From Phycisphaerales bacterium (GTDB taxonomy: Bacteria; Planctomycetota; Phycisphaerae; Sedimentisphaerales; Anaerobacaceae), in contig CP070782.1 of NCBI GenBank assembly GCA_020346325.1, positions 4,669,053-4,733,052 of the forward strand: a DNA stretch of 64,000 nt, given 5' to 3'. This document shows, in pieces, positions 10,248 to 16,874 of this stretch. How positions within the stretch are numbered: the first letter of the stretch is position 1; every line of letters begins with the position of its first letter. The notes beneath the pieces are model-generated. The model was not told where the DNA came from. It made no database searches and saw only the letters and a list, made by a program, of their open reading frames with translations. Both the position numbers and the translations under genes were made by a program.

Positions 10248-10403
10248 GCGAGAGTTCTCGGGCCCCAGTCGATATGTCCCTGGGCCGGCCCTCTTCCGCG
10301 AGGAGTTTTCGACAAAGGGCAACAGCCGGGGGGCGGTTCTTGACGATACAGACAAAAAGACGTACCTTTCTGCGATATTATAAGGCCAGAACTGTTGGAA
10401 AAT

Positions 10404-13136
10404 ATGCGAATGAAGGCAAGTCAAACCGATTCAGAAGGCACATTGCTGGAGACGGAGCCGCGCTCGGCGTTCTCCGGCTGGCCGATGATTATCGGCTGGT
10501 CTGCCATGTTGATCTTTTCTTTTCATGCTTGCACGCACATGGTCGCCGCCGGTGACACGTGGGTGGCGATGGCATGCGGTCGGCATTTTGTCCACCACGG
10601 CGTCGATACGGTCGAGCCGTTCAGTGCCAACAGTCACCACGCCGGCCCCACGGAAGCTGAGGTCCAGAAGTGGCCCGGGTGGGCCCGCTGGATCACCGAC
10701 ACGGTGGGCCTGGAGACCGTCAAGAAGTGGCACCCGACCGGCTGGATCAATCAGAACTGGCTAACCCATGTCATCTTCTATCGATTGGCCACGGGGTTTG
10801 GCTCCGACGATGATCCGGCCTTCAATGCCCTGGTGGTGTGGAAATTTGCGATCTACATCGTGGCGACGGTCTGCATCTACTACACGTCTCGGGTCCTGGG
10901 GGTCAATCCGGCCCTGGCGGTGATCTTCTCCTGTTTCGCGCTGTTCCTCGGCCGCTCGTTCATCGATGTCCGGCCGGCCGGCTTCTCCAACGTATTGGTT
11001 GCCTTGCTCTTGCTGATCCTGACCCTGACCAGCTATCGCAACGCCCTCTACATCTGGCTGATGGTCCCGGTGGTGGTATTCTGGGCCAACGTACACGGCG
11101 GTTATTTGTACGCGTTCATCGTCCTGGTGCCGTTCGTGGGTTGGCATCTGATCATGGGGCTGCCCAAGCGGTGGATGATCGCCGCCTATAGCATTCTCCT
11201 CTGGCTCGTGCTCTATGGCCTGGCCAACCGCTTCGGTCAGCACGAATACCTGACACCCGTGGAGGTCAAGGGCGACTGGATGGTTTACGTTCTGCTGCTG
11301 GCGATTGCCGGGAGTCTGGTCTTGGCCTGGGATCGCCGCGTCGGTAACGGCGCCGTAGTGGGCCTGCATGCCACGATTTCATGCGGGCTCTTCCTGTTGT
11401 TGCTCGTCCGGTTCTACCCGGAGTTGCCCGATGCGCTTAACCAGCGGGGGCAGGACCTTTTTGCCGAGTACGCGGCCAGTGGCCGTTCGGCGTACTTCGG
11501 CATCTTCTCTCTGGCAATGATCCTCGGCGCCGTGGTGGTCGCGGCGAAGGAGCGGGTCGTCCGTGTCGTGGATCGCAGGACACTGCTCCATGTCATCGGC
11601 GCCGGCGCCGTGGCGTTCGTGGCGATGGTTCTCTTCAATCCGTTCCATCTGACCAATCTGACACACACGTTCGTGATTTCGTTCAGCGAGCACGCCGAGC
11701 GCTGGCGCGATGTCCACGAGTGGCACCGGGCGTTCGACTGGAGCAACCCGGTGGGGACGGCCGTTCCGTTCCTGGTGCTGTACATTGTGGCGTGGCTGGG
11801 TCTGATCGGCTGGGCCGTGCTGCTGTTTCGGACGCGGAAGCTGGCCAATCTGCCGGCCAAGAAACAGGCGAAATCGGCGTCGCCGTTTGTCTGGCCCCAG
11901 ATCGATCTGGCGCTGCTGATCATCGCGGCGCTGACGGTCTATATGGCGATTCGCTCGCGGCGTTTCATCCCGATCGCGGGCTACGCGGCCTGTCCCATTC
12001 TGGCCCTGCTCGTCGACCATGTCATCCGCATTGGCGCAGCGCTTTACCAGCGGCGACGGACGAAGCGGCTCGAGGTCCCGGCGCTGCCGGCTGCCGTTGA
12101 GACGCGGCTCGTGCTGGCCGGGGCGGCCATCACACTGTGTTTTGGCATGCTGTGGGGCGCCAAGTTCAAGCGGGTCTATCTGGATTACTGGCCGGCCGAT
12201 CCGAAGCTGACCTCCATCTTCATGCGGATGACGGCTTCGGATGCCAAGCCCTTCTACGCCGGGGACTTCATACGCTACAATAACCTCAGCGGCAAGATGT
12301 TCAACTACTGGACCGAGGGCGGTTTCATCGCCTGGGGCCAGTGTCCCGATGCCGAGACGGGCAAGACGCCGCTACAGTTGTTTATGGATGGCCGAGCCCA
12401 GGCGGCCTACGATCGGCGCGTGTTCGACCTGTGGACGCAGATCATGGCCGGGGGGCGGGCGGCGCGGCGCGCGGCCATGGAACGGCGCCGACCCAACGCG
12501 CAGGACTACGCGGAGATCGGCAAGTGGGTGACCCAGCAGCTCGACAAGTACAATGTGTGGGTCGTGCTGATGCCCAACAACCAGTTCGACAAGGCCTTTG
12601 TCAATGGTCTGGTATACAGTCAGGATTGGCGTGTCGTCTTCATGAACAACAAGCAGAAGATGTTCGTCAATATCAACACCGAGCCCGGCAAGCAGCTCTT
12701 TGAGGGCATGTTCACCGGGGCCACGGAGTACCCGGATGAATTCTCGGCCCACCTTTCGATCGGTCACAATCTGTTGCTGTTTCGAGACGCCGAGAGCAAA
12801 GCAGAAGGGTTGCAGCGTGTGATGAAGGCCTTCGAGTTGGATCCGTCGCCGGCGCCGCTCCTCGTCCTGCTTCTGGTCGCCAGCCTATTCAAGGAGCTGC
12901 GCCCGCAGATCGATGAGTTCTGCGCCGGCTATGCTGCGGAGTTCGAGACGAACAAGGCCAAGTACGCCGGGCATCACGGCTATAACCTTCGCCTGGAGGC
13001 AGCGCGTCTGGCCCTGCTGCGGATGGAACAACTGGCGCGCATCAAGGGCAATAACGCAGCGGCTCAGACCTGCGTCGAACAGATGAACGAGTATATTGCC
13101 GAGAGGAACCGGATCTCGAATCGAAAGAGGTGGTGA
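10404..13136 (+). CDS. Large polytopic membrane protein, GT-C-like
   Basis: A roughly 910-aa integral membrane protein with about a dozen hydrophobic helices in the first two thirds and a soluble C-terminal region. The first exterior loop carries AAGDTWVAMACGRHF, then TVEPFS and GWINQNWLTHV, which resemble the DxW...G...D..S loop of GT-C glycosyltransferases that use polyprenyl-phosphate sugars. The C-terminal part (residues about 680-900) is helical and may carry TPR-like repeats. A GT2 enzyme of the polyprenyl-phosphate sugar synthase type follows three bases downstream, which fits a donor-synthesis/transfer pair. Starts at TTG 10395, ATG 10404 or ATG 10410 are all possible. No transfer activity is proven by sequence. 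Confidence 0.75.
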   Translation: MRMKASQTDSEGTLLETEPRSAFSGWPMIIGWSAMLIFSFHACTHMVAAGDTWVAMACGRHFVHHGVDTVEPFSANSHHAGPTEAEVQKWPGWARWITDTVGLETVKKWHPTGWINQNWLTHVIFYRLATGFGSDDDPAFNALVVWKFAIYIVATVCIYYTSRVLGVNPALAVIFSCFALFLGRSFIDVRPAGFSNVLVALLLLILTLTSYRNALYIWLMVPVVVFWANVHGGYLYAFIVLVPFVGWHLIMGLPKRWMIAAYSILLWLVLYGLANRFGQHEYLTPVEVKGDWMVYVLLLAIAGSLVLAWDRRVGNGAVVGLHATISCGLFLLLLVRFYPELPDALNQRGQDLFAEYAASGRSAYFGIFSLAMILGAVVVAAKERVVRVVDRRTLLHVIGAGAVAFVAMVLFNPFHLTNLTHTFVISFSEHAERWRDVHEWHRAFDWSNPVGTAVPFLVLYIVAWLGLIGWAVLLFRTRKLANLPAKKQAKSASPFVWPQIDLALLIIAALTVYMAIRSRRFIPIAGYAACPILALLVDHVIRIGAALYQRRRTKRLEVPALPAAVETRLVLAGAAITLCFGMLWGAKFKRVYLDYWPADPKLTSIFMRMTASDAKPFYAGDFIRYNNLSGKMFNYWTEGGFIAWGQCPDAETGKTPLQLFMDGRAQAAYDRRVFDLWTQIMAGGRAARRAAMERRRPNAQDYAEIGKWVTQQLDKYNVWVVLMPNNQFDKAFVNGLVYSQDWRVVFMNNKQKMFVNINTEPGKQLFEGMFTGATEYPDEFSAHLSIGHNLLLFRDAESKAEGLQRVMKAFELDPSPAPLLVLLLVASLFKELRPQIDEFCAGYAAEFETNKAKYAGHHGYNLRLEAARLALLRMEQLARIKGNNAAAQTCVEQMNEYIAERNRISNRKRW

Positions 13137-13139
13137 GCG

Positions 13140-13883
13140 ATGGCCGAGGCCGACCCCGCCTCGGATCGACGCGATGATCCGGGGGCTGGCGTTTCCATCA
13201 CAGTCTTTTTTCCCTGCCATAACGAGCAAGACAACGTTTCGCGGGTGACTCAGCAGGCGGTGACCACGCTGGAGACGTTGCAGGCGGACTACGAAGTGCT
13301 TATCGTCGACGATGGGAGCCGCGATGCGACGGGCCGGATCGCGGACGAAATCGCCGCCGGGAATCCGCGTGTCCGGGTGATTCACCATCGGCGCAATTTG
13401 GGCTACGGTGCCGCGTTACAGTCCGGCTTCCGGGCGGCCACCAGGGAACTGGTCTTCTATACCGACGGCGACGGCCAGTTCGATATCGGCGAAATGCCCG
13501 CCTTGCTGCCGCTCCTGGCCGACTACGACATCGTCAGTTGCTATCGGATGCAGCGCCAGGACAATCTCCTGCGGAAAATCAATGGCTGGCTCTGGACCCG
13601 GGTCATCCGCCTGGCGTTTTCGCTGAAGATTCGCGACGTCGATTGCGCCTTCAAGCTCTACCGGCGTGCGCTGTTCGACGATATCACGATGGAAAGTACC
13701 GGGGCTCTGATCGATACGGAGATTCTGGCCCGGGCGCAGCGGAAGGGGTATCGGATCACGCAGCGCGGTGTTCATCACTACCCGCGCACCGCCGGGCAGC
13801 AGACCGGCGCCAACCTGCGCGTCATTCTGCGGGCCTTGCGGGAACTGTGGCAGCTGCGCCGACGTATCCTCAGCGAGGCATGA
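13140..13883 (+). CDS. Family 2 glycosyltransferase (polyprenyl-phosphate sugar synthase type)
   Basis: A 247-aa GT-A-fold enzyme. VFFPCHNEQDNV opens the nucleotide-binding domain, VLIVDDGSRDATG gives the first acidic motif, and FYTDGDGQFDIGEM contains the metal-binding DxD. The protein resembles DPM1/GtrB-like synthases but has no C-terminal membrane helices; the IRDVDCAFKLYRR segment is typical of that group. It would load a sugar from a nucleotide donor onto a lipid carrier for the GT-C-like protein encoded three bases upstream. Its stop overlaps the start of the following fusion gene. Confidence 0.87.
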   Translation: MAEADPASDRRDDPGAGVSITVFFPCHNEQDNVSRVTQQAVTTLETLQADYEVLIVDDGSRDATGRIADEIAAGNPRVRVIHHRRNLGYGAALQSGFRAATRELVFYTDGDGQFDIGEMPALLPLLADYDIVSCYRMQRQDNLLRKINGWLWTRVIRLAFSLKIRDVDCAFKLYRRALFDDITMESTGALIDTEILARAQRKGYRITQRGVHHYPRTAGQQTGANLRVILRALRELWQLRRRILSEA

Positions 13884-15847
13884 GTTCAGATCATAGCGCG
13901 CGGGGCGCCAGGGCGATTATGCACAAGCGAAAAGTCAACCTCTTCATCTACGGCTCGCTGCGAGACAGTCGCATCTTCCAGTCCGTCAGTGGTCTGAGCT
14001 TCGCGCGACGGCCTTCGCGCCTGGATAAGAAAATTCTGTTTGCCGAACCGGCCTTTCTCCCGGGATATCGCAGGGTCAGTCCGGACAACGTCTATTTCTA
14101 TGCCGTCGAGGCGCCGACGGCACGCATCGAAGGGCTGTTGATCCATGACGTGCCGTTCTCGGCGATGGATGAGATCGACCGCTACGAAGGCAAACGCTAC
14201 CAGCGCGAGACCGTGCATGTCTCAGCCGCCCATGGCACGGTCGGGGCCCAGGCCTATCTCGTGACGACCGAGTCGATGCGCAGGCAATTCGGGGATCGGT
14301 TCCATGTGAACCTGATCCACGAACTGTGGCTGCGCAAACGCATCGACCGATTCCTCAAAAGACACACGCGTCCAGGGGAACGGACGGCCGATGCCGAGAT
14401 GGAACGCCTGGCCCAACGGGAACTGCTGGGCACGACCGAGCGCGATCTGGTGATGAGCCACTACCACAGTGACGCTGTGAGTGACTACTACCTCGAACGC
14501 GAACTGGATCGGCCTCGTCCGAGCATTCGGCACCTGGCGAGTGATCCGGAGGCCGAGCGGTTTCTGCGCAACTATCTGGCCCTCGTGCTGCGTCAGGTTG
14601 TGCTCAACGAGTTCGAGGAGCAGACGCGGAGCCGGTTCCGGTTCGAACTGGAACACATGCGGTCGTCGGAGCGCTACTTCGCCCGGTCGGTCAGTCTGCT
14701 GGTCGCCCTGCAGATGATCAACGCCAACAGCAGCATCGTGGACCTGCTCGTCGAGCGGAGTCTCAAGACCATGCCGGTCGGGGAGAACGACCTGATCGAC
14801 TACGTCAAATACGCGGTGCGCGCCTCGCGGAGCATGTTCGACTCGCGCGTGGCGGAGGCCCATCTGGCGCGCATCCGCTCGAACCTCCAGCCGGGACTGG
14901 TGCCGTTGGGGTTCGAGTTGGAGTTGAGCAATCTGGGGTTCGCGGCCGTCGAGCCGCAACGCAGCGCACGCCAGGCGTTCGATCCCGTCTACGATGGGTT
15001 CAAATACTTCTATGATTTCTGCCTCGATGTGCTCTGCTGGAAGATGGGTGGGTACATCGACGATCATACCGGCTCCGGGGTTCGACGGCGCAATTCGGGC
15101 TTCTTGGAATTGGCGCCGGGCCGGCTCAACATCGCGGGGGAACTGTCCCGGCCGGCCGCCTCGGATCCGTGGCTACTGAACCAGTTGATCCACGAGATGG
15201 TCAGTTTCTTTCCCGTCCAGCCGCACAGCCTGCATCTGACCTTTCAACTGCTTCGTCATCAGATCGGCAGGCATCGGACCCTCCCTTTGGGCTTCGTCAA
15301 GTGCCTGCTTGCCCTCGGCGGTGGCCTGGAGCGCAAGTCCGGAGGTCTGTGGATCTCACGCATGCATCAGGACGAGATTACCCAGCGCAACGTGGGCGAG
15401 GAGCTGGTGTTCGCTCGGTGCAGCCGGCGCAACTGGTATCTCGGAGGCGACGATATCGCCAACAAGGCGCCGGCCCAGGCCACCACCTACACCCAGCAGT
15501 ACAAGTTCATCCGGCTGGAGAAGCGGGCCAACTACGAGCCGCTGATTCTATGCCTCAAGGGCCTCCAAATTGCCTTCAACCCGGGCGACTATCTCAGCGC
15601 CGAACAGTTGCGGACCAGCGCGCATCTGCGCCGCCAGTATCAGGCGCTGAAAAGGTGGGCCAGCGAACCGACGCCGATCACGCCGCAGACGATAGGACGC
15701 TTCATGAACACCGTCCAGATGGGGCTGATGAACGAACGCCGCCGTCAGCCCGCCCACCAACTCCACTATATCGAATGGGCCCTGAGTGCCATTGCGGCCC
15801 AGTTTCAGATGTTCAATCAGCAGATCAAGAGGACCGCCGGCATTTGA
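13880..15847 (+). CDS. Fusion of a gamma-glutamylcyclotransferase (AIG2)-like domain and an amidoligase-like domain
   Basis: A 655-aa protein with two apparent enzymatic parts. Residues about 18-120 match the GGCT/AIG2 fold: LFIYGSLRDSRIF, then MDEIDRYEGKRYQRETV, where the Glu of DRYEG is the expected catalytic residue. A helical stretch (about 130-335) follows. The C-terminal third begins with LGFELELSN (GFELEL at 344-349) and includes NQLIHEMVSFF and SLHLTFQL near residue 452, resembling the GxExE opening strand and His strand of glutamine-synthetase-like amidoligases (COOH-NH2 ligases). Together these would make and cleave gamma-glutamyl or other isopeptide bonds. ATG 13880 overlaps the previous stop (ATGA); ATG 13919 with AGGG upstream is an alternative. 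The GGCT part is fairly sure; the amidoligase part is my inference. Confidence 0.7.
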   Translation: MSSDHSARGARAIMHKRKVNLFIYGSLRDSRIFQSVSGLSFARRPSRLDKKILFAEPAFLPGYRRVSPDNVYFYAVEAPTARIEGLLIHDVPFSAMDEIDRYEGKRYQRETVHVSAAHGTVGAQAYLVTTESMRRQFGDRFHVNLIHELWLRKRIDRFLKRHTRPGERTADAEMERLAQRELLGTTERDLVMSHYHSDAVSDYYLERELDRPRPSIRHLASDPEAERFLRNYLALVLRQVVLNEFEEQTRSRFRFELEHMRSSERYFARSVSLLVALQMINANSSIVDLLVERSLKTMPVGENDLIDYVKYAVRASRSMFDSRVAEAHLARIRSNLQPGLVPLGFELELSNLGFAAVEPQRSARQAFDPVYDGFKYFYDFCLDVLCWKMGGYIDDHTGSGVRRRNSGFLELAPGRLNIAGELSRPAASDPWLLNQLIHEMVSFFPVQPHSLHLTFQLLRHQIGRHRTLPLGFVKCLLALGGGLERKSGGLWISRMHQDEITQRNVGEELVFARCSRRNWYLGGDDIANKAPAQATTYTQQYKFIRLEKRANYEPLILCLKGLQIAFNPGDYLSAEQLRTSAHLRRQYQALKRWASEPTPITPQTIGRFMNTVQMGLMNERRRQPAHQLHYIEWALSAIAAQFQMFNQQIKRTAGI

Positions 15848-15957: not shown

Positions 15958-16278
15958 TTAGCAGAGGACGGCCGGGGCCGGTTCCCGAGTGACGGCCAGG
16001 TGGTTGATGTTGCAGCACCACGTGTTGTGGCACGTATGGGGCACTCGCGACGGTAGTTCGTCATAGATCGCGTAGTGGAGATAGCGGTGTACGTTCAGGG
16101 TGTAAAGCGTACCGTTGTGTTCGAACGTGTATTCGGCGTAGCCTTCGCTATCATGGTCGCCCAGCCAGCGCCAGCAGAAGCGCGGCTCGCGTCGTTCGAT
16201 GAGGTGCCAGAGATCTTCGTGGAGTTGCTTGTGTTCCTGCCGAAAGAGGTGGTAGACATCGTTGCTGTCAAATCCCAT
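15958..16278 (-). CDS. Small HNH-type protein
   Basis: A 106-aa protein whose C-terminus reads VPHTCHNTWCCNINHLAVT, the HNH_3-like signature (HtCxnxxCvNpxHL) of homing-type and phage HNH endonucleases that cut DNA using one divalent metal. The first half is helical (YHLFRQEHKQLHEDLWHLIE), followed by the WRW...Y...LNVHRYLHYAIY region seen in these small nucleases. ATG 16278 has AAAGG seven bases upstream; the frame is open further but without support. The asparagine-position residue is Asn, so activity is plausible. No intron or intein is seen around it. Confidence 0.7.
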   Translation of the reverse strand: MGFDSNDVYHLFRQEHKQLHEDLWHLIERREPRFCWRWLGDHDSEGYAEYTFEHNGTLYTLNVHRYLHYAIYDELPSRVPHTCHNTWCCNINHLAVTREPAPAVLC

Positions 16279-16394
16279 GGTGCGCCTTTCATATTGCAAT
16301 CTCATGACACCCATATATCGGTCGGATACGGGGGGCACTTTGCCGGATTTGGCGCTTTCTCGGTGGATTGAGCGTCGGCGGGCAGCCGGTGGAC

Positions 16395-16874
16395 TCAGTG
16401 CCTCTCGGCGTCCCGGTAAGCGGCGCTGCGTTTGAGACGGGCGACGGCAACACGGATGACGGCGTCGTGGTCGAAGGCCAAGTTCTCCGGCAAGCGGTCG
16501 ATATCGAACCATCGGGCCTCCGCGGCATCGTCGCCGCCGCGGATCTCGGTTTGGCCGTCCGGGGCGATGCCCATGTAGACTACGGTGATCTGGCGACCGC
16601 GTGGGTCACGGCCCACGGTGCCGAAGGTGCGCATCTGCTCGAGGGCGACGTTCCTGAGGCCGGTTTCCTCTTCCAGCTCGCGGGCGACGGCATCCTCGAG
16701 CTCCTCGTCCATTTCGATGAAGCCGCCGGGGATCGCCCACTGGCCCTGATACGGCTCGTGCTTGCGGTTAATCAACAGGAGGTGGGCTTTGCCATCGATG
16801 AACGCAAAGACGGCTGCGTCCACCGTGACCATCGGTCGAGGCCATTCGTATACATACCTGCCTCTTTCTGCCAT
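16395..16874 (-). CDS. NUDIX hydrolase
   Basis: A 159-aa pyrophosphohydrolase with a complete NUDIX box: GGFIEMDEELEDAVARELEE followed by ETGL, giving GX5EX7REUXEEXGU. The N-terminal YEWPRPMVTVDAAVFAF and the motif QGQWAIPGG resemble the ADP-ribose/nucleotide-sugar subgroup. It probably hydrolyses a nucleoside diphosphate linked to another group in the cytoplasm. It is transcribed divergently from the GT9 gene. Confidence 0.9.
   Translation of the reverse strand: MAERGRYVYEWPRPMVTVDAAVFAFIDGKAHLLLINRKHEPYQGQWAIPGGFIEMDEELEDAVARELEEETGLRNVALEQMRTFGTVGRDPRGRQITVVYMGIAPDGQTEIRGGDDAAEARWFDIDRLPENLAFDHDAVIRVAVARLKRSAAYRDAERH

Follow-up and report, generated by a model that had tools for sequence, protein, structure and literature searches.

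The pairing of a gamma-glutamyl cyclotransferase with a ligase of the glutamine synthetase (GS) fold has been described in Firmicutes, where the gene for an Aig2 cyclotransferase adjoins that for a GS-fold ligase (PMC2588565). Operons of this type had been mentioned in the first-pass annotation of the DNA studied here, and they are real. The Firmicutes partners are neighbouring genes, whereas the protein reported here holds the same pairing in one chain, with a helical middle of 190 residues; the likeness to that Aig2-associated ligase family lies in the pairing. Each half also has known counterparts. The AIG2-like/GGACT gamma-glutamylamine cyclotransferases (PF06094) share their fold, YGS loop and invariant Glu with the N-terminal domain; they are usually small, stand-alone proteins, but here the domain accounts for the first fifth of 642 residues. 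With PafA and Dop (PF03136, Pup ligase and depupylase), the C-terminal domain shares the GS fold, the GhExE strand and the strand order of its acids; with GCS1 (GshA) and GCS2 (YbdK and the N-terminal part of GshAB), it shares the GS fold and the ExE motif, at Z 12.4–14.4. It differs from PafA/Dop in that identity is 7–10%, the N-terminal half of the chain is different, and PF03136 is matched by none of the 45 family members in our diverse alignment; the genome of the window showed neither a PF03136 match nor a proteasome. From GCS1 and GCS2 it differs in that no profile match is obtained and the fusion adds the cyclotransferase and the helical middle.

The gene lies in a 64,000-nucleotide stretch of DNA from a Phycisphaerales bacterium, the whole of which we call the window, and its product keeps a GGCT/AIG2 domain and a GS-fold, ligase-like domain in a single chain. 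Judging from sequence comparisons and structural models, we propose with a probability of roughly 0.55 that it is a lineage-specific enzyme of Phycisphaerae with two domains and two working activities, the ligation and the cyclisation of gamma-glutamyl amides. Both domain types are known; the ligase-fold family and the single-chain combination are apparently undescribed, and no description of the fusion was found in the literature searched, a scope outside which the 2009 amidoligase survey fell.

The fusion gene and its N-terminal half

The open reading frame runs uninterrupted from 13880 to 15847 on the forward strand of the window (655 codons) and contains all of the motifs that had been read from it, YGSLR, DRYEG, GFELEL and SLHLTFQL. 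The true start is probably at 13919, the second Met (Met14 of the 655-residue frame), because most relatives begin at the equivalent of this residue. The coding sequence would then span 13919..15847 (+) and encode 642 residues, and all residue numbers given here count from 13919. At the alternative start, 13880, the ATG overlaps the stop codon of the upstream glycosyltransferase gene as ATGA. The fusion gene is present as a single copy in its genome, and its nearest relatives are found in Sedimentisphaerales bins. Full-length relatives with 34–82% identity occur in many Phycisphaerae, and the gene is therefore not a chance reading frame.

The N-terminal domain (residues 5-118; 13931..14272, +) is a GGCT/AIG2-like gamma-glutamyl cyclotransferase domain by family match and by fold. 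It matches PF06094 (GGACT) with an E-value of 1.3e-11 and 45.5 bits against a curated cut-off of 22.8, and the same family is matched by 45 of the 45 members of the diverse alignment. The closest structures to the model are plant AIG2-like proteins (Z 13.3 for 2g0q, and 12.8), followed by human GGCT (Z 11.9) and human GGACT (Z 10.5). In the YGS loop (residues 11-13), Y11 and G12 are invariant in the 45-sequence alignment and residue 13 is always Ser or Thr. E90 (14186-14188, +) is likewise present in 45/45; it aligns with the Glu of the 'EG' motif of plant AIG2 proteins, and, given what is known of the family, we take this residue as the candidate catalytic Glu. The GGCT/AIG2 fold, which had been suggested from YGSLR and DRYEG, is thus backed by the family match, the modelled fold and the conserved residues together.

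A linker, FGDRFHVNLIHE, follows at residues 119-135 (14273..14323, +). With 87% mean identity in the 63-row family alignment, it is the most conserved stretch of the chain, and it has the lowest confidence of the chain in the AlphaFold2 model. The next region, residues 136-325 (14324..14893, +), is modelled as entirely helical. A helical middle of 200 residues had been read from the sequence, and the model agrees, at about 190 residues. Residues 132-235 are barely covered by structural matches.

Fold and candidate active-site residues of the C-terminal domain

The remaining part of the chain, about 315 residues (326-640; 14894..15838, +), was modelled twice with AlphaFold2. The full-chain model was built from the 63-row family alignment (pLDDT 86, pTM 0.83). 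The domain was also modelled alone, since the GGCT domain dominated the Foldseek ranking of the full model and left the ligase fold low in it, and a more diverse alignment of 45 rows was used for this purpose (pLDDT 85, pTM 0.87). The best structural match of the domain-alone model is PafA (Z 15.0, rmsd 4.0 over 247), followed by GCS1 (14.4), Dop (14.1), GshAB (13.2) and YbdK (12.8). The GCS2 (YbdK) structures lie at Z 12–13, and the GS enzymes rank below them, at about 11. Foldseek E-values for the C-terminal domain model are modest (4.4e-4 for PafA). PafA is the top match with both models, tied with GCS1 at less than 1 Z apart, and with values this close the scores do not settle which ligase family is nearest.

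The predicted core strands lie at residues 330-336, 379-381, 395-398, 435-443, 499-505 and 522-532, with helices at 417-430 and 540-553 after core strands 3 and 6, as the GS fold requires; two extra short strands (470-479) are placed between core strands 4 and 5. The domain therefore very probably adopts the GS fold of carboxylate-amine ligases in these models. A GS-like COOH-NH2 ligase domain had been suggested for the C-terminal third of the protein, and both AlphaFold2 models bear this out; the checks that were run for an unrelated fold and for poor conservation of the GFELE and SLHL residues turned up neither.

Iyer and colleagues list the conserved residues of the superfamily by core strand (PMC2588565), and we matched our motifs to this list by strand order along the chain rather than by superposed coordinates. 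Three of the five published carboxylate-amine ligase motifs are found and two are found in part. The Ex[EH] motif of core strand 1 is represented by E333 and E335 within the GhExE sequence G331-F-E333-L-E335 (14909..14923, +), and each Glu is kept in 44/45 sequences. The conserved acids of core strands 2 and 3 are D381 (15059..15061, +) and E397 (15107..15109, +), both in 43/45. An Arg on core strand 5 and another in the preceding loop are R504 (15428..15430, +) and R481 (15359..15361, +), and both are invariant (45/45). The two partial cases are found on strands 4 and 6. S437-L-H439 (15227..15235, +; S437 and H439 in 43/45 each) takes the place of [HDQ]x[NH] on core strand 4, where H439 fits the second position and the first is Ser, not His, Asp or Gln. 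On core strand 6, for which Ex[RK]x2D or [QH]x4D is published, Q527-Y-K529-F-I-R532 (15497..15514, +) fits as far as Q527-x-K/R529 (Q in 44/45, Lys or Arg in 45/45), and the final Asp is replaced by an invariant Arg, R532 (45/45). As judged from the models and the alignment, the domain holds most of the predicted metal- and ATP-site residues of carboxylate-amine ligases.

E333, E335, D381, E397 and H439 are each kept in at least 43 of the 45 sequences in this alignment, and every exception belongs to one family, f15, represented by two genomes (fusion proteins L154:7119-9140 and L155:3831-5810). Both f15 proteins have lost E397 and H439; D381 has given way to Glu in one protein and to Arg in its counterpart; E335 has become Asp in L154, and E333 has become Asp in L155. 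The cyclotransferase Glu, E90, and the YG of the loop are retained in both. The decay of the ligase residues indicates that a working ligase is not needed in f15 and, with E90 kept, that the two sites can evolve apart. In members of a further family, f16, the PGR that follows E397 in Sedimentisphaerales is replaced by LGN, LGS or similar. Of the two sites, that of the cyclotransferase thus varies less, and the changes in f15 and f16 weaken the case for ligation being required throughout.

These observations bear on the alternative that survives best, namely that the protein is a cyclotransferase only, in which the GS-fold domain would serve as a non-ligating binding or scaffold part and 5-oxoproline would be released from the bound gamma-glutamyl compound. 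The decayed site of f15, the loss of PGR in f16 and the Arg in place of the strand-6 Asp throughout the alignment are what such a protein might look like. However, the five metal-site residues are kept outside f15, and R481 and R504 have no exception at all. We consider this reading unlikely.

Ligase families and alternative readings

No family in Pfam, NCBIfam or PHROGs covers the C-terminal domain, and the profile comparisons gave no significant link between it and any ligase family. A search of PDB sequences with the family profile returned the AIG2 domain and no ligase match, searches of PHROGs and of plasmids gave no match to the ligase part, and no viral relative was found. What we describe is a ligase-like GS-fold branch outside these three collections that is tied to an enzyme type that undoes gamma-glutamyl bonds.

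The rank of PafA raises the possibility of a PafA/Dop-like tagging system, in which the C-terminal domain would attach to lysines, or detach from them, a small protein or peptide whose last residue is Glu, and the cyclotransferase domain would act on the isopeptide or its remnants. In addition to the structural ranking, an hhalign comparison gave a weak, in-register match to PafA over the last helices (P 0.006), using a small PafA profile, some of which had been reconstructed from PDB alignments as printed. However, the structural lead over GCS1 amounts to a tie, PF03136 is found in one of 120 genomes of the class and is missing from the genome of the window, none of the proteasome families was found in the five genomes examined, and an unsystematic look at the genes adjoining the fusion gene recognised no Pup-like gene. 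We regard this reading as quite improbable.

A role in thiol metabolism would make the C-terminal domain a GCS-like ligase that forms gamma-glutamylcysteine or a relative and carries its own ChaC-like degrading domain. The GCS1 and GCS2 structures are close (Z 12–14.4), and PF04107 occurs in 9 of 61 genomes of the class and not in that of the window, a rarity that leaves room for a substitute. Against this, the GCS2 profile (PF04107) gave neither a Pfam match in the 45 members nor a link by hhalign, and PF02955 (GSH-S_ATP) turned up in a single genome of the five that were checked, which gives no clear sign of a glutathione pathway. This assignment also appears very unlikely. Membership in Amidoligase_2 (PF12224), to which the first-pass annotation had pointed, is highly improbable and contradicted at the sequence level: the general GS fold and the GhExE strand are shared, and among viral models the first and fourth ranks go, with weak scores (E 0.0035), to phage proteins named amidoligase, but none of the 45 members matches the Pfam family, a profile of 11 PF12224 proteins from the same class aligned by hhalign on unrelated registers at an E-value of about 0.6, a second profile comparison likewise gave no link, the solved structures closest in fold belong to PafA/Dop and GCS, and the label is left unsupported by this lack of Pfam cover and profile link.

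Proposed function, distribution and neighbourhood

In the two-activity enzyme that we favour, the C-terminal domain would activate a carboxylate by phosphorylation with ATP-Mg (the gamma-carboxylate of Glu is the likeliest) and join it to an amine, and the N-terminal domain would take gamma-glutamyl groups off amides as 5-oxoproline. Together, the domains could add and remove the gamma-glutamyl amide of some amine, or make it and turn it over; conceivably, the helical middle holds the sites in place relative to each other. In butirosin biosynthesis, a ligase adds and a cyclotransferase removes a gamma-glutamyl protecting group, and we offer this protect/deprotect cycle as an analogy for the fusion. 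That both activities form a coupled add-and-remove cycle on the same compound is a tentative suggestion. Similarly speculative is the picture of a writer and an eraser in one polypeptide, in which the GS-fold domain would add Glu or a Glu-ending tag, the helical middle would hand the substrate from one site to the other, and the cyclotransferase would remove the tag as 5-oxoproline. If true, the protein would represent a new family of carboxylate-amine ligases with a built-in reversal enzyme. If both sites work, the fusion would provide a handle on how bacteria use glutamate to protect or tag amines, in a class of planctomycetes that is large and mostly uncultured. The pair of f15 sequences, in which the ligase site has decayed, is a test case supplied by nature for which of the halves is important.

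The family profile matches 75 of 298 genomes of the class, and in three of these (G250, G157 and G271) the cyclotransferase part alone is matched. Full-length copies are spread over several families of Phycisphaerae; in some genomes, the end of a contig truncates the gene or its two parts lie on separate contigs. Sequences of one family group together in the gene tree, which fits vertical descent. In a sample of the phylum, 7 of 392 genomes match, all from the order to which the window belongs, with members of the class possibly among the remainder. The fusion had been called uncommon, which holds in that it was not found elsewhere in the phylum sample; within parts of this one class, it is common and full length.

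Upstream of the fusion gene in the window lie a GT2 glycosyltransferase (PF00535; 13140..13883, +) and a large, membrane-protein-like ORF of 913 residues with no Pfam match (10395..13136, +). A GT2 gene on the same strand precedes the fusion gene at 60 of the 61 Sedimentisphaerales loci whose upstream sequence was long enough to judge, the large membrane protein is upstream at 60 of the 61 loci judged in this order, and an alanine racemase gene (PF01168) is upstream on the same strand at 20 of 61. None of these three was found upstream at any of the 13 loci that belong to families f12, f15 and f16, and therefore they do not name the substrate of the family; outside Sedimentisphaerales, no conserved metabolic neighbour that could name one was seen. 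On the other side of the fusion gene, between it and a NUDIX gene, the ORF at 15958-16512 (-) has a weak match to HNH/His-Me endonucleases (PF05551, E 0.014; PF13392, E 0.021; both below the cut-off). At four loci (L158, L157, L086 and L096), the alanine racemase gene separates the GT2 gene from the fusion gene.
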